This document shows, piece after piece, positions 1 through 21,638 of a stretch of DNA of 21,638 nt. Location of the stretch: positions 1-21,638 of IMG/VR virus record IMGVR_UViG_3300025853_000779, one strand, 5' to 3'. The translations under genes and the position numbers were made by a program. The notes below the pieces were generated by a model. The model was not told the origin of the DNA, ran no database searches, and saw nothing but the letters and a program-made list of their open reading frames with translations. Each line of letters starts with the position of its first letter. Position 1 is the stretch's first letter. This DNA comes from a virus.

Positions 1-828
1 CCCGAGGATCTGGAGGCCGAATTCAAAAATGAAGTGGTTTTTGGGTCGGTAGTTGAGCATTATAAAAAATACGCGCACAAGTTGCCGGCAATTGGGTTTT
101 GTCCAACAATTAAGATAGCGCAGGCATTTACAGAAAAATTCAGGGACGCTGGCTACAATTTTCATTTTCTCGACGGAAACACACCAGGCAAAGAAAGATT
201 CGATATGCTTCAAGATTTAGCTAATGGAAACATTGACGGGGTGATGAGCGTCGGCATTTTGATCGAAGGTACAGACATACCTTTGGCCACCGTTGGCTTG
301 ATGCTCACTCGCACAAAATCCATCCGCGTGTATTTGCAGTCAATCGGGCGACTGCTTAGGCCGCACCCAAAAAAGCAACGAGCAGTAATCATGGATTTTG
401 TCGGACTTACTGAGATTCACGGTTACCCCGACGATCACCGTGAGTGGAGCCTGTCCGGTAAATCGAAAAACCGCCCACGAGAAGCCAAAGAAGGCGACGA
501 ATCAAGTATTAAGGTGCAGACTTGCCCGACTTGCTACCGAGCACACCGACCGGCTGATTTATGCCCACATTGCGGACATGTGTACAGTGCCGACCCCAAA
601 GAACGCAAAATTTTAGAGGTTCAAGGCGAGCTCATCCGCGTAACCCGAGAAGAGCGCGAACTTGAGCATCAGAAAAAGCAGGAAGCAGTTAAGGGACGGC
701 GATTAGAAGAGGGGGCCTGCAAGACGTACGAGGACTGGCTGGAGTTGGCGAAATCGCGTAGTTACAAATTCCCTGCGCAATGGGCAAAAAGGCGCTATGA
801 ACTGAGAGTAAAAAGGAAACAAGCATGA
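1..828 (+). CDS. SF2 (DEAD/DEAH-type) DNA helicase, C-terminal part (5' truncated by window)
   Basis: The frame is open from base 1, so the N-terminal ATPase domain (Walker A, DEAx) lies outside the window; the GTG at 34 is internal. What remains is the second RecA-like domain. It has motif V (EGTDIP, about nt 262-279) and motif VI (QSIGRLLRPH, about nt 337-366), whose arginines act as the finger on ATP bound by domain 1. A four-cysteine zinc knuckle (CPTC, nine residues, CPHC; about nt 523-573) and a charged helical tail follow. Phage helicases of this kind act in replication or recombination as ATP-driven DNA translocases. The stop overlaps the next start as ATGA, so it is translationally coupled to the nuclease downstream, a pairing common in phage replication modules. 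The fold is secure; the exact role in this phage is inferred. Confidence 0.88.
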   Translation, partial: PEDLEAEFKNEVVFGSVVEHYKKYAHKLPAIGFCPTIKIAQAFTEKFRDAGYNFHFLDGNTPGKERFDMLQDLANGNIDGVMSVGILIEGTDIPLATVGLMLTRTKSIRVYLQSIGRLLRPHPKKQRAVIMDFVGLTEIHGYPDDHREWSLSGKSKNRPREAKEGDESSIKVQTCPTCYRAHRPADLCPHCGHVYSADPKERKILEVQGELIRVTREERELEHQKKQEAVKGRRLEEGACKTYEDWLELAKSRSYKFPAQWAKRRYELRVKRKQA

Positions 829-14500: not shown

Positions 14501-14951
14501 CCGCGCCATTTAACTTTCTGAAATTTTCAGCCGTTACGCCAACGCGAGGGGCAATATTTTCAAAAAAATCAGCCATCCCGCCTGCGCCGGTAGCCAAAAA
14601 ATCGCCCACTTTGTCTTGGGTGTCTTTTAGAATGTCCCCGAGCTTTTCTTGCTCAATTCCAAATGTTTTTGCGGCAAATGCAATTTCCTGGAATCTGTCA
14701 ACAGAAGTGCCGCTCAATCTACTTAACTTAGTAAGCTCACGACCAACATCACCTAAGCCGGTAACTAAGCCGACAAGCTCCCGAGCCCCCAAGGCAAGGC
14801 CAATTGCGCCCAAGGATTTAGCCGCCACCGCCGCCGACTTTTGAATTTTCTGCATTGACCCTTTTACAGTCGATTGCGCCCTATCCATGTCTTTTTTAAT
14901 CCGCGCTACATCTGCGGCCATTTGAATAGTAAGCTGTGCGACTGTGGTCAT
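11556..14951 (-). CDS. Tail tape measure protein
   Basis: 1131 aa, the largest gene of the window, between the chaperone and the tip genes as expected. The N-terminal coiled coil (ARIKKDMDRAQSTVKGSMQK) and GARELVGL region are typical of lambda-like tape measures. A hydrophobic stretch spans about 270-325, a long charged coiled coil about 325-550, and a Gly/Ala-rich hydrophobic region about 600-706 (AAGAAIGTYLGSSFGPIG) may insert into the host membrane. No lytic domain is evident. At roughly 0.15 nm per residue it predicts a tail near 170 nm if unprocessed. The start has AAAAGG upstream and overlaps the chaperone stop (ATGA). Confidence 0.92.
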   Translation of the reverse strand: MTTVAQLTIQMAADVARIKKDMDRAQSTVKGSMQKIQKSAAVAAKSLGAIGLALGARELVGLVTGLGDVGRELTKLSRLSGTSVDRFQEIAFAAKTFGIEQEKLGDILKDTQDKVGDFLATGAGGMADFFENIAPRVGVTAENFRKLNGADALQLYITSLEKANLSQAEMTFYMEAIASDSSALIPLFADNGKALKELSKEADRLGIVLDKSALEKAKKLDIEMRKFEATTEGLSRSVAMALIPAMSSIAQVSQDIIRELPRLVDEFKPFMVGGAVVAGLYTLPTIINSIALAISSRLIPSLVLLAPYVAVFSALTLAAGAAIKVLNAQSEALKDADSTARRVVNLQKEIEKAQALIDAGQGSSVTVERLKTMKAQLVEAESALEAFNQSKQVAQVQDQQNIEQQTTIIQNAKDREKAEKKLEKALKEKQKVEQKALEQAIDVINAELDQVDAIQEQIKQITEQTQAIGLNEQQLRNLELAKIDDVIATKEQRIAAISFGDANDELIKAYKKQIAALEDLKKAKKTQFEKQEVQKVIDANKEIAEQFENDLIGAFETAFNRVGDFAESFKRAIEQQFSSMVLRPTIQAAMSKGGSIGGVLSANQGTIASAITGAGFGGQAIALEYGLENAGSVLAKFAGQTTALTAELGAFASDLAPYAGAITALLEGDPKKAAGAAIGTYLGSSFGPIGAAIGSYIGGSLFGGGGKVSAQLLGPKFLQDQQDALKSSFINIVQDIGGRAANADFFFTGSTGRQGQNPNFILGSRLGGQDLFNTYQSRAGETGNNGTFLAGEIALNAENMALFGTRAIVSALQNSDFVDNIDRLFDSVDVRTASLEDLNALLADVRMLDYVNDNFIQMTNGLRQLSGASAQTVKQFFSMIGGIEGLQQTLGFFAKEFTSEENQFKNFTDNLNRSLADFGGRLFSTREQFVNFFNSIGPDAFARVSQLLPAIDSYYDAIEKRQEESTNIAIREIDRIRNAGLSIANYLRNLETSESTLNPTQKLAAAQQQFNETLSAARSGDINALGNLTDSADTLLNLSREFFGSSSRFKSIFDVVTGQLSAVAAPALQADSSQNVVGELRELRREIRESGDLVLTVVTPDGRIIREETLTTLRERSRRGELVIYSDGVKS

Positions 14952-15397
14952 TTGGTTGCCTTTTCCCGATCAGACTTTATCCGCGATCTAAACGCTGATG
15001 TAAGTTTATCAGATATAACCGACCGATTAAAGTCAATTTTACTGCGATACGGCGCGGGTGTTAAAGGGTCTTTTGATTGATGATACTGAGAGCAATAAGC
15101 ACGAGACGCATCAATGATAGCTTGAAATTCCCACCCAGAAAGAGGGTATTTTGTGCCGCGTTGCCACTCCATGACATCAAATGAGTTAAGCGGCTCAACA
15201 CCATTAAAACCAGACTTGCAAACCCCACAACGCTCTAAAACCTTAACCAAATACTCTAGGTCATCAATATCAGGCAGATCAGGCACCCCGCCTCTATCTC
15301 GCAAATCATCAAGGCGGGATTTTGTCCTTTTTTCTGGGGTTACGCTATACCAAGCCAATTGCTTGGCATAATCGCTTAATCTTGTTGAGCACCGCCA
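14948..15397 (-). CDS. Tail assembly chaperone, frameshift-encoded C-terminal part (gpT of gpGT type)
   Basis: This frame has no ATG near its beginning; the nearest possible start is a TTG at 15358 without a ribosome binding site. It is open back to the run of seven T in the upstream gene, which lies in the -1 position. A -1 slip there continues as WRCSTRLSDYAKQLAWYSV and runs to 14948, adding 149 residues to the first 140 of the upstream protein (289 aa in total). Position just before the tape measure gene and size match the T part of lambda-like G/GT chaperones, where the fusion binds the tape measure and recruits tube subunits. The stop overlaps the tape measure start. Confidence 0.75.
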   Translation of the reverse strand, partial: WRCSTRLSDYAKQLAWYSVTPEKRTKSRLDDLRDRGGVPDLPDIDDLEYLVKVLERCGVCKSGFNGVEPLNSFDVMEWQRGTKYPLSGWEFQAIIDASRAYCSQYHQSKDPLTPAPYRSKIDFNRSVISDKLTSAFRSRIKSDREKATK

Positions 15398-15816
15398 AAA
15401 AAATTCGACATGTCCCCCAAGAACGATTGGACTTGTTTATTGATATAAATAAGCCTTGTCTCAGAATAAACACCACGGGATCCGTTTGGATATGGGAAAT
15501 TTTCAATTTCTTTGGTAACTGAAACCAAGAAATTAACATCAGCCTGCTTGTCATCAGACTCTTCTTTTTTCCCATTTTTACCCAATGCTGCTAAGACCTT
15601 GCGCGTTGCTGCTGAATCAAGAGCAGCCTTTGCTTTTTCGTACTCAGAAGAGCCTGGGGCATAAACGTGAATTCTTACCGGCTGGCCGTTTCTTAAAAGC
15701 GGCTTACCCGTGGGGGTTTCAACTTCTAAAACGGCTGTTTCAGAAAGAAAAAACTCTTCAAATTCATTTTTTATTGACACTTCTTTTGATTCTTCAATTT
15801 TCTCAACGTTTTCCAT
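15376..15816 (-). CDS. Tail assembly chaperone (gpG type)
   Basis: 146 aa from ATG 15816, chosen over the in-frame TTG at 15879 because GCGAGG lies just upstream. Acidic N-terminal half, then a helix-rich part (AKAALDSAATRKVLAAL), and a C-terminus ending SNFFGGAQQD. The codons for the two Phe are part of TTTTTTT (15397-15403). Position between tube protein and tape measure, size and the slippery 3' end identify it as the short chaperone of a G/GT pair. Its similarity to any named family is weak by eye, so the call rests on context and the frameshift signal. Confidence 0.75.
   Translation of the reverse strand: MENVEKIEESKEVSIKNEFEEFFLSETAVLEVETPTGKPLLRNGQPVRIHVYAPGSSEYEKAKAALDSAATRKVLAALGKNGKKEESDDKQADVNFLVSVTKEIENFPYPNGSRGVYSETRLIYINKQVQSFLGDMSNFFGGAQQD
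15397..15403 (-). promoter_or_regulatory. Slippery heptamer for programmed -1 ribosomal frameshift
   Basis: On the coding strand the zero-frame codons AAT TTT TTT GGC contain T TTT TTT, the canonical X-XXY-YYZ heptamer made only of T. The zero frame stops six codons later, whereas the -1 frame is open for 149 codons up to the tape measure gene. Both tRNAs would re-pair perfectly after a -1 slip. No strong downstream pseudoknot is obvious by eye. Confidence 0.75.
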
Positions 15817-15900
15817 TATAACCTCGCAATTTATGCACCAACCAAGACCCCAGCCGTTGCGAGGATCGGCCAGAGTCAAGGAAAGTGCTAGTTTACGGCC

Positions 15901-17792: not shown

Positions 17793-18394
17793 CAAATCCC
17801 CCTGTTTGTCCTGTGCAAATTCAGCAAATCCTCAACGCCATACGGTAACGAGTCCATTTTTTGGCCTACTTGTTGACGGTTTTCGTATAGATGCCCAACC
17901 ATCAACAAAATGGCGTTCTTGATGCTTTTTGGAAGCGGGAATGTATTTGGGCTTTCACCGTCGGTATATCCAGCAGTAACGGTCAAAGTGGCAACGTTTG
18001 GAACGCTTGTTTTAACGCTTGGCCAATCACCGACCGAGTACACACGCGCCGGAGCGCTTGCTGAATCTAATACATAAGCCGAGGACACCAAAGTTTGCTC
18101 AGAACCGGCAGAATCAACATACTCAAACAGATCAACGCTTGATACCGGCCACTCCCCTAAGTCAATAAATTTGTCTTTCAAACGGTCAAAATAAATCACC
18201 GAAGTTCGATAAGCGATTGAATGCCCCAAGTAGTCCTCACAGAACTGACGAGCCGCCGAAATGTAAAGCGAAATTAAATCATCCTCTGGGTGTGTAGCTG
18301 GGCTCCCGAATGTGTCTAACCGCAAATGATCCCTAGCCTCGGCCAGCGTGACTGGCTCGGATGTTGGCTCTGCGCGTTGAATTCTCTTAACCAT
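17792..18394 (-). CDS. Head-tail connector (adaptor) protein, gp6/gp8-like
   Basis: 200 aa. TSEPVTLAEARDHLRLD followed by HPEDDLISLYISAARQFCEDYLGH is the hallmark of the adaptor family (HK97 gp6 and phiE125 gp8-type proteins): the 'pvsLaeak-hLr' helix, then the long 'D-li-l-i-aAr-~-E-~-g' helix. IKNAILLMVGHLYENRQQV is the conserved C-terminal helix, with DSLPYGVEDLL after it. It forms a ring below the portal. Its start overlaps the methyltransferase stop by eight bases, so the foreign-looking cassette upstream is in the same operon. Confidence 0.86.
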   Translation of the reverse strand: MVKRIQRAEPTSEPVTLAEARDHLRLDTFGSPATHPEDDLISLYISAARQFCEDYLGHSIAYRTSVIYFDRLKDKFIDLGEWPVSSVDLFEYVDSAGSEQTLVSSAYVLDSASAPARVYSVGDWPSVKTSVPNVATLTVTAGYTDGESPNTFPLPKSIKNAILLMVGHLYENRQQVGQKMDSLPYGVEDLLNLHRTNRGI

Positions 18395-19016
18395 TTAACC
18401 GCCTAAAATGATAGGTCTGAATATCCTCTCGGTACAACTGCTCACCTGTGCTTTGTCTCTCGCATTCAAAGCCAAACAAACGCATAAACCATTTTAAACC
18501 ATTGTCCGTGAAATACCAACAATGCTCATCTTTGCGAAAATGCTTGCTTCTTAAAATGTGCTCCGCGTTTTCATAAATCGGCATTGAAACAAAAACACTA
18601 TTTTTGACCCTAGATAAAATTGTCTCTGGGTCATGTATGTGCTCAAGCGAATCCCAGAAAGTCAAATAATCAACAGGCTTAGTGCTCATCAACAGATTGT
18701 GCCAACGTTTTTCATTTTTTAGCCAACCAATTGCCTTTGGGTTTATGTCAAACCCCGCGCAATCCATATCCTCGCAAAACCTGCCTCCGCCTATGCCAAC
18801 ATCAACCATTGAACTTGGATCGGTAATTTGAGTAAACTCAATTCTAAAATCAGTCAAATACTCGCCTGACGGGAACTGGTCCATTTCTCTGTATTTTTGC
18901 CAGTATTCAACATCGTAAGGTTGTTCTTTTACCGGGAAAAACCCAACCCCAAATTCAGGCAACCAGACAAGCTCATCAAGCTCTGTAGCCAGCTCTCGCA
19001 ATTTTTCTAAATTCAT
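18387..19016 (-). CDS. SAM-dependent methyltransferase, class I
   Basis: 209 aa from ATG 19016, which overlaps the upstream gene by about 40 bases; in-frame ATG 19064 is an alternative. A Rossmann core is clear: motif I VDVGIGGGRF at 71-80, motif II acidic Asp90 in GFDINP, and LTFWDSLEHIHDP at 118-130, the motif of UbiE/Coq5-like small-molecule methyltransferases. A C-terminal part (KHFRKDEHCWYFTDNGLKWF) completes the domain; the FRKDEHCWYFT element resembles sugar- and polysaccharide-associated methyltransferases. There is no DNA-methylase catalytic motif (DPPY or PC), so DNA is unlikely as substrate. Sitting after two putative sugar-transfer genes, it may methylate a glycan. Confidence 0.78.
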   Translation of the reverse strand: MNLEKLRELATELDELVWLPEFGVGFFPVKEQPYDVEYWQKYREMDQFPSGEYLTDFRIEFTQITDPSSMVDVGIGGGRFCEDMDCAGFDINPKAIGWLKNEKRWHNLLMSTKPVDYLTFWDSLEHIHDPETILSRVKNSVFVSMPIYENAEHILRSKHFRKDEHCWYFTDNGLKWFMRLFGFECERQSTGEQLYREDIQTYHFRRLNG

Positions 19017-19809
19017 CAATGTGTTTCTCAAAGTTGGTGATTTTTTTATCGCACTTGTGGTCATGCCGAGAACACATACAAAAATTTTCAGGCATGGCTT
19101 TAACAATCATTTTGTCATCAATACGCGGATCAAACAACCTTTCAGGGCAGTTTGATGCCCCCCAGCCTCCAAAAATACACAGCATGGGTAGATTGTAAGC
19201 CATGCTCGCCGGTAAAAGCCACCCAACCGAGCCAATAGCTCCAGCGCTTGATTCAAGTAACGCCAAAATATCAGCCAAGCTCAATTCCCCAGCATGGTAT
19301 TTCTCGTGGGCGAACGGCTCGTCCCCGTCTATCCATTCTTTGCCGTCCTCAAGATCGGCAATTGAAATTATATGAAACTCGTCTTTCAAGGCGTCTACAG
19401 CTTGGCATAAGTAAGCCGGATCACAATTCCTAGAACTTGCTGGCCACTCTGCCCTAACTGTGCATGGTCTGACAATAATAGTTTTCTTTTTTTTCAAGCC
19501 CAACTTAGGCATTTGCATTGATAAATGTGCATTCTTTACGCTAATTGAACGCTCAAGAGCCTCAATTATCGTTCCTCTTTGGTCATAAAAAAGCCGTTTT
19601 TTTATCCCAGACGGTCTAAAATTATCAAAGTTTGATTTTTCAATGTGTTTTTTTTGAGTCCGAAGCGTCGTTTGTGGTTTTAAGCACCGAACAGGCAAAT
19701 CAGCGTAAATCTCCGACCACGGCGTGTAAAGACTAACTGGTCCAAGCTCTCGGATTATTGCTCGTTGATAAAAGTTATCACCAAGCCCATACATGCCATG
19801 AATTATCAT
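18976..19809 (-). CDS. Glycosyltransferase family 9-like (GT-B fold) protein
   Basis: 277 aa. The N-terminus MIIHGMYGLGDNFYQRAII is the Gly-rich loop and first helix of heptosyltransferase-like GT-B enzymes. KTIIVRPCTVRAEWP at 109-123 matches the start of the donor-binding domain. GAIGSVGWLLPASMAYNLPMLCIFGG (190-215) is the region that contacts the nucleotide-sugar in this family, although the usual 'D-g-p-~-HlA' reads S-VGWLLPA, so a key residue differs. A Cys/His cluster near the end (C244, C246, H249, C253) may bind metal. The ATG overlaps the upstream stop (ATGA), with GAGG before it. Acceptor unknown. Confidence 0.7.
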   Translation of the reverse strand: MIIHGMYGLGDNFYQRAIIRELGPVSLYTPWSEIYADLPVRCLKPQTTLRTQKKHIEKSNFDNFRPSGIKKRLFYDQRGTIIEALERSISVKNAHLSMQMPKLGLKKKKTIIVRPCTVRAEWPASSRNCDPAYLCQAVDALKDEFHIISIADLEDGKEWIDGDEPFAHEKYHAGELSLADILALLESSAGAIGSVGWLLPASMAYNLPMLCIFGGWGASNCPERLFDPRIDDKMIVKAMPENFCMCSRHDHKCDKKITNFEKHIDEFRKIARAGYRA

Positions 19810-20411
19810 TTCAGGGCCTCAATGTTACGGCGCACAAAACAAACCAACGCGGTTTCCCGGCTAAAATTAACCACTTTCACGCCCTCACTAACCAAATCAG
19901 ACGCCAAAACATCAAAGTTTTTCACCCATTGATTAAACTGAGGGTTCCCGCCTCTGCATTTTGCTGGATGATCACCGTGCCAATGTGAATCACCGCCGGT
20001 TGCCTGCATATCAAAACCAAGCAAACCAACCCATTTAGCGCCCCACAGATAAGCCAAATTTAAAGCCTGATAGCCAGAATTGCCGCCCAAATGCATTACC
20101 TCGCGCCCTAATCCCGGCTTGCTGAAACCTTGAACTCTAATTCCGCCAATCTCATGAGCCCTGCTACTGTAAGAAACTCGAACGGCTTTACATGTTTTGT
20201 TTATTTCGTTTAAATAAACTTGCCACCAAGGGAAATCGCAGGCATAAAGAACATCACACCACGGGGCCAGCCTGAACGATGTATTGATGGCAATTACTGC
20301 TCTTTCTTTCGGGTTTTCTTCTCGCCACTTTTTGATTCTTTCGCAATCTCTTTCTGTGAGGCTGGGGCCACTTGCGATGATAAACCATTCTCGCTTACCC
20401 CAACCGTAAAA
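19806..20411 (-). CDS. DUF115/GT42-like protein; 5' half without a normal start codon
   Basis: The frame is open from 20411 to 19806 (201 codons). The first ATG is at 20096, with GAGG only two bases before it, but the residues upstream look like the real N-terminal half: WFIIASGPSLTERD (20387-20346), ERAVIAINTSFRLAPWCD, LYACDFPWW. After the ATG come GGNSGYQALNLAYLWGAKW, LLGFDM and HWHGDHP. The [A/G]-x-GPSL start with a later NSG-x-x-A-x-x-LA-x-x-x-GA-x-x-x-x-LLGfDm resembles DUF115/MptE-like proteins and GT42 sialyltransferases. No ATG, GTG or TTG lies between the TGA at 20412-20414 and the motif. ATG 20415 in the neighbouring frame (AAAGG upstream) would reach it by a +1 shift at GGGGT. The 5' part overlaps the 94-aa gene. 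Confidence 0.7.
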   Translation of the reverse strand, partial: FYGWGKREWFIIASGPSLTERDCERIKKWREENPKERAVIAINTSFRLAPWCDVLYACDFPWWQVYLNEINKTCKAVRVSYSSRAHEIGGIRVQGFSKPGLGREVMHLGGNSGYQALNLAYLWGAKWVGLLGFDMQATGGDSHWHGDHPAKCRGGNPQFNQWVKNFDVLASDLVSEGVKVVNFSRETALVCFVRRNIEALK

Positions 20412-20578
20412 TCATTTGGAATAACCTTTGTTTGGCGTGGTTTTCCTAAAATTTCAACTAAACCTGCGTTTTGCAACTGTTTTGCTAACCAATCATCAAT
20501 TGGGCGCTCTTCGCCAGATGAGAAATTTCCGGCATTTATACTTGAAAAATCTTTTAGTGCTTTAACTTGGATTTTCAT
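20294..20578 (-). CDS. Small post-capsid protein, 94 aa
   Basis: Start ATG 20578 with GCGAG upstream; a longer in-frame reading to 20611 would cross the terminator stem. N-terminal part (MKIQVKALKDFSSINAGNFS, then SSGEERPIDDWLAKQLQNAGLVEIL) has the strand - G - strand - helix - 'A..GLVE' plan common in small phage proteins encoded just after the capsid gene. The C-terminal 35 residues are Lys/Glu/Ser-rich and disordered (KESKSGEKKTRKKEQ). That low-complexity tail is exactly the part overlapping the putative N-terminus of the DUF115/GT42-like frame, so the tail may be a by-product of overlap. Function unknown. Confidence 0.65.
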   Translation of the reverse strand: MKIQVKALKDFSSINAGNFSSGEERPIDDWLAKQLQNAGLVEILGKPRQTKVIPNDFTVGVSENGLSSQVAPASQKEIAKESKSGEKKTRKKEQ

Positions 20579-20588
20579 ATTAACTCGC

Positions 20589-20617
20589 AAAAAAAATGGG
20601 GAGCCTCGCAACTCCCC
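20589..20617 (-). terminator. Intrinsic terminator after the major capsid gene
   Basis: On the - strand: GGGGAG, an eight-base loop (TTGCGAGG), CTCCCC, then A and eight T. The six-pair stem is perfect and GC-rich, and it lies six bases after the capsid stop codon. The T-run is followed immediately by the GCGAG ribosome binding site of the next gene. It would reduce transcription of everything downstream relative to capsid, unless antitermination acts. Confidence 0.8.
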
Positions 20618-20623
20618 GGTTCA

Positions 20624-21638
20624 TTAAGCTGGCAATGTACCGTACTGGATGGCAGCAGGGCGGTAGAATTCAGCAGCCGCTCTCAACTCACCGCGAACCG
20701 TGATTAGGTTCTTGGTTACGTTGTCAGCATCTTGCTCAAACATCTCAACAACAACATCAGAGCGCGGGCGTAATGCCATTGCATCAGACGCAGCACAAAT
20801 CAATGTGCCCTCTGGAACCGCGTTTGAAGCGACCACAGGAAGTCCCCAAAGAATCGGAACCAAGCCATTAGCAAGGTAGCTAACCGCGCCCTCTTGGCCA
20901 ACATAAGAGGCATCACCTGTGCCTTTCTTGATCAACTCAATGGCCGACCAATCAGCTGGATTGATCATGTAAACGCTCGGCATGTAATCGGCAGCAATTA
21001 CCGCATATTTCAAACGGTTTGCAAAGTCGATTTTATTGTCGCCAGTCAAAGCTGTGTACTCAGTTGAGTTGCCAGTATCCAGCAATCCAGACATTTGAGA
21101 AGAAGCCGCCAAGCCGTTGATGAATCGAGTTTGAAGGATGTTTTGAACACCGTGTCTCAAACGACGGTCAATGTAACCCTCAAGTGCTGGCTGGTCGTCT
21201 ATAACCTGCTTTGACAAGCGAATGAAGTGAGCAATCGTTTTCACGTTTGCTGTTTTCAGCTCAAAGGTCAAATCGCTTTCTGGCTTTGATGCACCTTCAG
21301 CCGTTTCAGACGCATTGTTGGTAAATACGTTTTCGCGCACATACTCAGTAGCGTTTGATGTAGTTGGAATACGGTTAACAAAGTCCAGAATAGTCAACGG
21401 GCGGAAAGCGCCGCCAACGATACCAGGCAAACGATCAGCTTGAACCAATACACCATCTGGTGCCTGTGGTGAACCACTCTCGCCCAAAATTGTGTTTTTG
21501 GTTTCTAATCGGATTTTGTTTGTGCGTCCGTCCTTGAAGTCTTTAAATTGAGCAGACTTTACAAATTCCTGACCCAATGTGTCGTTGACTTCCTGTTTGG
21601 CCAACTTAAAACCTTTTTGCGCCAACTCTTGAAACTCA
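20624..21638 (-). CDS. Major capsid protein, HK97 fold (5' truncated by window)
   Basis: Open to the right edge; the TTG at 21625 is internal, so the N-terminus (perhaps a scaffolding delta domain) is missing. The 337 visible codons contain gp5-like elements: a Gly/Asp-containing loop region (LPGIVGGAFRPLTILDFVNR), then ATEYVRENVFTNNASETAEG with GASKPESDLTFE, matching the E-loop region. IAHFIRLSKQVIDDQPALEGYID is the spine helix and the P-domain follows; VYMINPADWSAIELIK and LWGLPVVASNAVPEGT are typical A-domain segments. It forms the icosahedral shell. Upstream genes (protease, portal, terminase) should lie beyond the window. Confidence 0.9.
   Translation of the reverse strand, partial: EFQELAQKGFKLAKQEVNDTLGQEFVKSAQFKDFKDGRTNKIRLETKNTILGESGSPQAPDGVLVQADRLPGIVGGAFRPLTILDFVNRIPTTSNATEYVRENVFTNNASETAEGASKPESDLTFELKTANVKTIAHFIRLSKQVIDDQPALEGYIDRRLRHGVQNILQTRFINGLAASSQMSGLLDTGNSTEYTALTGDNKIDFANRLKYAVIAADYMPSVYMINPADWSAIELIKKGTGDASYVGQEGAVSYLANGLVPILWGLPVVASNAVPEGTLICAASDAMALRPRSDVVVEMFEQDADNVTKNLITVRGELRAAAEFYRPAAIQYGTLPA

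Follow-up and report, generated by a model that had tools for sequence, protein, structure and literature searches.

How is an enzyme made from a reading frame that offers the ribosome no start codon? This question arises on the minus strand of the window, as we call the whole stretch of viral DNA analyzed here (21,638 nucleotides). There, 201 open codons (20411-19809) are preceded by TGA at 20414-20412 and closed by a stop at 19808-19806. The frame, which encodes a putative glycosyltransferase and is referred to below as the GT frame, has the N-terminal residues FYGWGKREWFIIASGPSL... Its first ATG is at 20096 and would give a 96-aa product; upstream of 20096 there is no ATG, GTG or TTG, including the stretch before the ASGPSL loop. 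A sequence-only reading of the locus had described these properties, all of which we found as described, and had proposed a programmed +1 frameshift among other explanations. A programmed frameshift is indeed likely, but it would go in the -1 direction, out of an overlapping post-capsid gene, rather than in the +1 direction from the ATG at 20415. Based on the comparisons presented here, we consider it highly probable (roughly 0.9) that the GT frame, which has no canonical start, is a conserved and translated one, and that ribosomes enter it by a -1 shift from this small gene.

The enzyme is conserved upstream of its first start codon

In a profile search, PHROG 4603 (alpha-2,3-sialyltransferase) matched residues 12-199 of the full GT frame (E 1.4e-46), while the match of the 96-aa version was weaker (E 1.1e-25). 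This comparison of the 201-codon frame with the short version indicates that the upstream residues are real, and it bears out the earlier suggestion that a conserved Rossmann-type N-terminal half of an MptE/GT42-like enzyme lies before the first start. When tblastn was run with the GT frame, 77 phage records were found, and in 68 of them at least 80% of the frame was aligned. The sequence matches argue that the residues before the first ATG are genuine conserved protein and not noise.

The exact window sequence was found in two further contigs. The nearest lineage, with 87% protein identity, was found in five (L003-L007), and in these the TGA, the absent start and the overlap with the small gene (see below) were all kept. 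Downstream, the differences between the window and L003 numbered 7, 2 and 34 at the three codon positions of the GT frame. That they fall mostly on third positions indicates purifying selection on this frame.

The isolated phage Psp6 has a GT frame without any start. In D3-like phages, the sole GT-frame start is GTG or TTG and lies inside conserved codons of the small gene. Gene finders were predicted to truncate the enzyme, and this has happened in part of the relatives: D3 orf7 and the U7 gene are annotated from 3' of the loop, no gene was called in phi1, and the PMG1 gene was called from GTG. These inconsistent calls among D3 relatives are a systematic annotation error. By record, the same enzyme is truncated in D3 (AF165214.2, 5951-6409) and absent from the annotation of a close relative (KT887557.1, 17203-17712); among further relatives it is truncated in PP003919.1 (36989-37393) and has a GTG start in HQ711985.1 (5813-6409). 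In nine other loci (L023, L025, L027, L094, L102, L103, L105, L106 and L110), several of them Bordetella, Burkholderiaceae or environmental, the GT frame extends to approximately 390-570 codons, adding another domain at the C-terminus of the GT.

The GT frame is the -1 frame of a small post-capsid gene

The region upstream of the GT frame contains the following features:
20624..21625, minus strand: HK97-type major capsid protein gene (Pfam Phage_capsid, E 7e-38), directly upstream of the frameshift pair
20294..20578, minus strand: small post-capsid gene, 94 aa, the zero-frame product (phrog_7993 / phrog_2616)
20408..20411, minus strand: proposed -1 slip site T_TTT (zero frame GAT TTT ACG, -1 frame TTT TAC)

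The small gene begins 46 nt past the major capsid gene and overlaps the GT frame, which is the -1 frame of the 94-aa gene. This overlap and the -1 relation had been missed in the sequence-only reading. We propose that a programmed -1 frameshift links the two into a single unit of expression. Most ribosomes would complete the small protein, and a minority, after moving back one base at T_TTT (20411-20408), would read on through the GT frame (19806..20408, minus strand; 200 codons plus stop). Their 257-aa product would join 57 aa of the small protein to 200 aa of the GT: a small domain at the N-terminus, connected by a linker to an entire Maf/GT42-like glycosyltransferase.

Some members of the small-gene family have matches to DUF7210/DUF7302. 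The window small protein did not match these two profiles, and the relative L103 scored 25.3 bits, below the threshold of 27. By its profile matches, the small domain is best described as related to DUF7210/DUF7302 and not as a formal member.

A family-wide survey separates two settings of the enzyme

We assembled homologous loci from viral contigs and from prokaryote genomes, one for each species, built a small-gene profile by iteration and classed each locus by the frame of the small gene relative to the GT. At 113 of the 147 loci analyzed, the GT lies in the -1 frame of a small gene, a number that overstates independence because the loci are related by descent. The GT was in the +1 frame of the small gene in none of the 147. 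Three loci had a small-gene match in the GT's own frame, and 31 had no small gene. As the loci were picked by sequence pattern, with no more than 80 viral ones taken, these proportions are not population estimates.

In 95 of the 113 loci with the -1 arrangement, no ATG, GTG or TTG precedes the ASGPSL motif. The other 18 have a GT-frame start codon before the motif, which leaves room for independent GT initiation there. Where the small gene was missing, a start was present upstream of the motif in 30/31 loci. A capsid gene was found upstream in 104/105 -1-frame loci with enough DNA and in 1/28 loci without the small gene. Together, the counts for small-gene frame, start codon and capsid gene point to two settings. 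In one, seen in P1 PmgO and PAJU2, the enzyme stands alone and has a start codon; in the other, it follows the post-capsid gene and is start-less. The -1 arrangement is shared by the isolated phages D3, PMG1 and Psp6, and the carriers include Bordetella, Pseudomonas, Halomonas, Lysobacter, alphaproteobacterial and Omnitrophota genomes as well as phage D3. L134 (Rhodospirillaceae, anchor near 2504) was the only start-less GT with neither a small-gene relative nor a capsid gene among our matches; a different upstream gene may be its partner.

We rejected selection against start codons as evidence. Dereplication left 81 loci with several slip-motif types, 66 of them start-less; codon shuffles gave 67.1 ± 1.9, so there is no excess beyond the chance expected for this overlap phase. 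What counts as evidence is the conservation of the protein, the relation between the frames and the presence of slip motifs.

Slip motifs are concentrated in the small-gene frame

Heptamers of the type X_XXY_YYZ occurred 64 times in the small-gene frame, in 52 of the 81 dereplicated loci, compared to 12 and 18 times in the two other frames. In 500 codon shuffles of the small gene, the number was 27.6 ± 5.3 (maximum 45). Typical heptamers were GGGAAAA/C, CCCTTTA/G, CCCAAAC/A/G, AAACCCT and TTTTTTG, and the slip motifs were mostly located 11-14 codons 5' of the GPSL loop. C_CCA_AAG was kept in all five D3-like phages examined; this is the strongest motif measured in E. coli, with 54% frameshifting in the presence of a stimulator (PMC4066793). 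A C_CCA_AAT in L003 was rejected as a slip site, since it reads directly into the TGA.

The heptamer-less loci number 29, and 27 of them contain a shift-prone tetramer (C_CCC, C_CCU, U_UUU, A_AAG or A_AAA) 30-50 nt 5' of the motif; the null was 5.0 ± 2.0 (maximum 15 of 2000). No non-prone tetramers were found at this distance in the 29 loci. In L079 and L136, two of the 81 loci, we saw no obvious slip motif close to ASGPSL. The shift-prone set, including U_UUU, was ranked in E. coli, where tetramers were approximately 10x weaker than the best heptamers (PMC4066793); the site proposed for the window belongs to this weaker class. In the window group (L001, L003, L022, L024, L028, L029-L033, L036 and L098-L100), a zero-frame NNT TTT N is conserved at -35 to -44 nt relative to the ASG codons, while the preceding codon and the following base vary freely. 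Since T_TTT is kept at one place in this group, we place the slip at 20411-20408.

Coding constraint changes frame at the proposed slip site

A substitution-pattern test was conducted with 17 pairs of relatives. 5' of about position -45, substitutions fell on third positions of the small frame (96/160 in -150..-105), and from -24 on they followed the GT-frame pattern, with third positions accounting for 273/447 in 90..240. Inside the overlap, where both frames are open, GT third positions accounted for 81/142 in 0..60. Upstream, the window and L003 differed by 3, 3 and 20 at the three codon positions of the small frame. Thus, constraint switches from the small-gene frame to the GT frame at the proposed slip place. 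The zero-frame tail of the small protein is under weak constraint and is predicted to be flexible.

A natural in-frame counterpart was detected in L026. With a capsid gene upstream, its small domain and GT are encoded in the same order as a single in-frame ORF, without a shift (MDKVAIAMRAF...GLVREV...GRWPGSVIVCIASGPSL...). L086 is fusion-like in another setting and has a weaker small-gene profile match. We considered L086, L087 and L090 as extra fusions and left them uncounted: the small-gene profile reaches L086 alone, and Pfam reaches none. L043, which has a small-gene match in the GT frame, was also rejected as a fusion, having a separate upstream gene.

Other routes to the GT frame

The most serious competitor is initiation of the GT alone at a near-cognate codon (ATC/ATT/CTC) in the overlap, coupled to translation of the small gene. 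ATC ATC stands directly 5' of ASGPSL in the window and in L003, and ATT/ATC are frequent there in relatives. However, these codons encode the first beta strand, which such a start would cut, D3 has CTC at the last position, and the GT frame is conserved also upstream of the ATC codons. A free start would moreover need neither the -1 frame seen in 113/113 loci nor slip motifs confined to the small-gene frame. We regard it as very unlikely. The chance that the frame is changed by transcriptional slippage at a homopolymer, and not by the ribosome, is slim: runs of 7-8 A or T are present at the site in L033, L042 and L055, but the window site has four T only, and most loci carry mixed motifs (GGGAAAA, CCCTTTA) typical of tandem tRNA slippage.

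The +1 shift proposed in the sequence-only reading would start at the ATG at 20415 (MILRLG) and change frame at GGGGT. This short ORF and the AAAGG located 9 nt upstream of its ATG are present in the window; they are not conserved. L003, although 87% identical, lacks the stop and GGGGTAA and reads AAAAG for AAAGG, L022 (68%) has no ATG, and at no locus analyzed is the small gene in the frame that a +1 shift would require. We find this route scarcely credible. We give just as little weight to a recent one-base insertion in a dead gene or an assembly error, which the TTTT and GGGG homopolymers near the break might suggest. The same TGA without a start occurs in seven contigs of two lineages, 95 start-less loci are distributed across phages, prophages and bacterial genomes, and the window/L003 counts in the GT frame (7, 2, 34) speak for purifying selection. 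Because the arrangement recurs in 113 loci, D3, PMG1 and Psp6 among them, we find no support for the other explanations first suggested, namely initiation at ATC/ATT, a gene killed by an insertion or an error in the assembly.

A candidate hairpin follows the proposed slip site in close lineages

A potential stimulatory RNA structure was found in the window:
20360..20405, minus strand: candidate stimulatory hairpin, 2 nt past the slip codon (20405-20397 pairs with 20368-20360)

Its 3' arm lies inside the GPSL codons (dG -22.2 kcal/mol, z -2.9). Comparably strong stems were present in L003 (z -4.0) and L022 (z -3.3) despite differing 5' arms, and L103 also has a stem after the slip site. The hairpin was looked for and found absent in L028, L032, L024 and D3, and a general downstream hairpin was rejected, as the mean z across 81 loci was just -0.5. 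We therefore treat the hairpin as a candidate stimulator in the window's close lineages only. An upstream Shine-Dalgarno stimulator was set aside, as AAAGG is replaced by AAAAG in L003. Rfam gave no match in 19500-20700.

Predicted structures of the two parts

To model the GT half, we used the AlphaFold2 prediction for the natural in-frame relative L026 (264 aa, mean pLDDT 87.2). This half matched the flagellin glycosyltransferase Maf (5mu5) with Z 16.5 over 187 residues at 2.9 A, the GT42 enzyme CstII with Z 12.3 over 165 residues and the MptE HPPK with Z 11.6. According to the model, the enzyme half shares its fold with GT42 and with the Maf central domain. Sequence identity to Maf and CstII is 12-15%; the GT half is much smaller than Maf and, unlike Maf and CstII, is joined to a phage head-module domain. 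Against Pfam MptE-like (PF01973), the GT scored 20.6 bits, below the gathering threshold of 34.6. The conserved family residues are ASGPSL, DxLYAxDxxWW, NSG, GxD and HWHGxH, with ASGPSL and HWxxxH near-invariant across the family. These two may be the counterparts of the GNGPSL-like donor loop and the catalytic His of GT42 enzymes (His188 in CstII). The GPSL loop is expected to form the donor site.

For the small domain, AlphaFold2 gave a pLDDT of ~90 at residues 1-40; residues 1-44 are predicted to be folded and 45-94 flexible, so that the proposed slip falls in a predicted flexible linker between both folded parts. The small domain matched the C-terminal domain of lambda gpFI (2lsm; Z 5.3, rmsd 1.2, 44 residues, VIA-align), 2hjq (Z 4.5) and GINS B-domains (up to Z 6.5, above the 5.3 of gpFI), and fold matches at Z below 8 may reflect just a common arrangement. 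Residues 1-47 are also weakly similar in sequence to archaeal GINS B-domains (3anw, E 9e-5; NCBIfam Gins23, 0.04). The GINS resemblance probably means a shared small fold only. A PDB sequence search with the fusion gave no significant match.

In lambda, the gpFI gene is located directly after the coat gene, and the C-terminal domain of gpFI binds the coat protein. Both the gpFI gene and the small gene are thus directly 3' of the capsid gene. The small domain differs from gpFI in its low identity (16%), low Z and lack of the terminase-binding N-terminal domain, and it would carry an enzyme when shifted. Because of the gene position, the likeness to the head-binding gpFI fold and the likeness of the enzyme to the protein-glycosylating Maf, we suggest that the N-terminal domain could bind the capsid, and that the fusion could glycosylate a capsid protein or ride in the head. 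We hold this suggestion with somewhat less than even confidence.

The downstream cassette

The GT frame is followed by two genes:
18976..19809, minus strand: phrog_6804 gene (E 1.3e-77), with a 4-nt overlap with the GT end
18387..19106, minus strand: SAM methyltransferase (Methyltransf_23, Pfam E 1.9e-13), third gene of the cassette

The phrog_6804 gene is labelled glycosyltransferase family 9 in some D3-like phages. The listed TTG start of the methyltransferase gives 239 aa, and its true start is likely later. The trio of GT, GT9-like protein and methyltransferase recurs in Psp6, D3-like phages and PAJU2, which is consistent with a glycan-modifying role. In PAJU2, the trio is located away from the capsid gene.

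Elsewhere in the window, at 14948-15879 on the minus strand, there is a second likely -1 frameshift, at a T7 run (15403-15397). The gene 15879-15376 ends with ..SNFFGGAQQD, and a slip at TTTTTTT leads to WRCSTRLSDYAKQLAWYSVTPEKR.. in the frame of the next gene (phrog_18915), the only listed start of which is TTG. This is probably a tail assembly chaperone pair.

Relation to known systems and significance

In phage T3 gene 10 and the major head protein of Lactobacillus phage A2, a -1 shift extends the capsid protein (reviewed in PMC5009743). Like the pair described here, these genes belong to the capsid module and shift late, yielding a minor C-terminally extended product. In T3 and A2, however, the extension is an Ig-like domain of the coat protein, present in the virion, whereas here a small post-capsid protein would acquire a whole enzyme. 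The lambda G/GT tail assembly chaperone also has a conserved -1 heptamer in the overlap and a start-less second frame, but the genes and products are different. IS3/IS1 transposases use the same set of Z_ZZN and X_XXZ_ZZN motifs, including U_UUU and C_CCY tetramers (PMC4066793); no transposase is involved in our pair, and the main text of that paper mentions neither sialyl nor capsid. The family to which P1 PmgO and D3 orf7 belong matches our GT along nearly all of its frame. The N-terminal loop is missing from the annotated D3 orf7. P1 PmgO and PAJU2 ORF010, unlike our pair, are not neighbors of the capsid gene, and each has a start codon of its own. A survey of Rhodococcus phages reportedly mentions frameshifts and a glycosyltransferase.

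In the largely open-access literature searched, we found no report of a frameshift joining a post-capsid protein to a glycosyltransferase. Nor did we find one linking ribosomal frameshifting with a sialyltransferase, or a capsid protein and a glycosyltransferase with a slippery sequence. Programmed frameshifts in phage capsid and tail genes as such are already known (PMC5009743).

A knock-down screen classed P1 PmgO as non-essential (PMC10695390), which leads us to expect an accessory role. Tentatively, and with the odds against it, we envisage that in HK97-type phages and prophages the -1 shift puts a Maf/GT42-like glycosyltransferase on a small, fixed share of a capsid-binding protein. The enzyme would thus be held at the assembling head and possibly packaged, and might either decorate the coat with a nonulosonic-type sugar of the host or be a cargo that the particle delivers.

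If true, the -1 shift would be a further conserved, widespread programmed frameshift, this one adjoining the major capsid gene. It would also account for the truncated, inconsistent or missing annotations of D3 orf7 and its relatives, in which the GPSL loop is lost. The tetramer slip motifs of the E. coli ranking would then have a natural use beyond insertion sequences, which is directly testable. Finally, an enzyme tethered to the phage head would bear on the origin of virion glycosylation.
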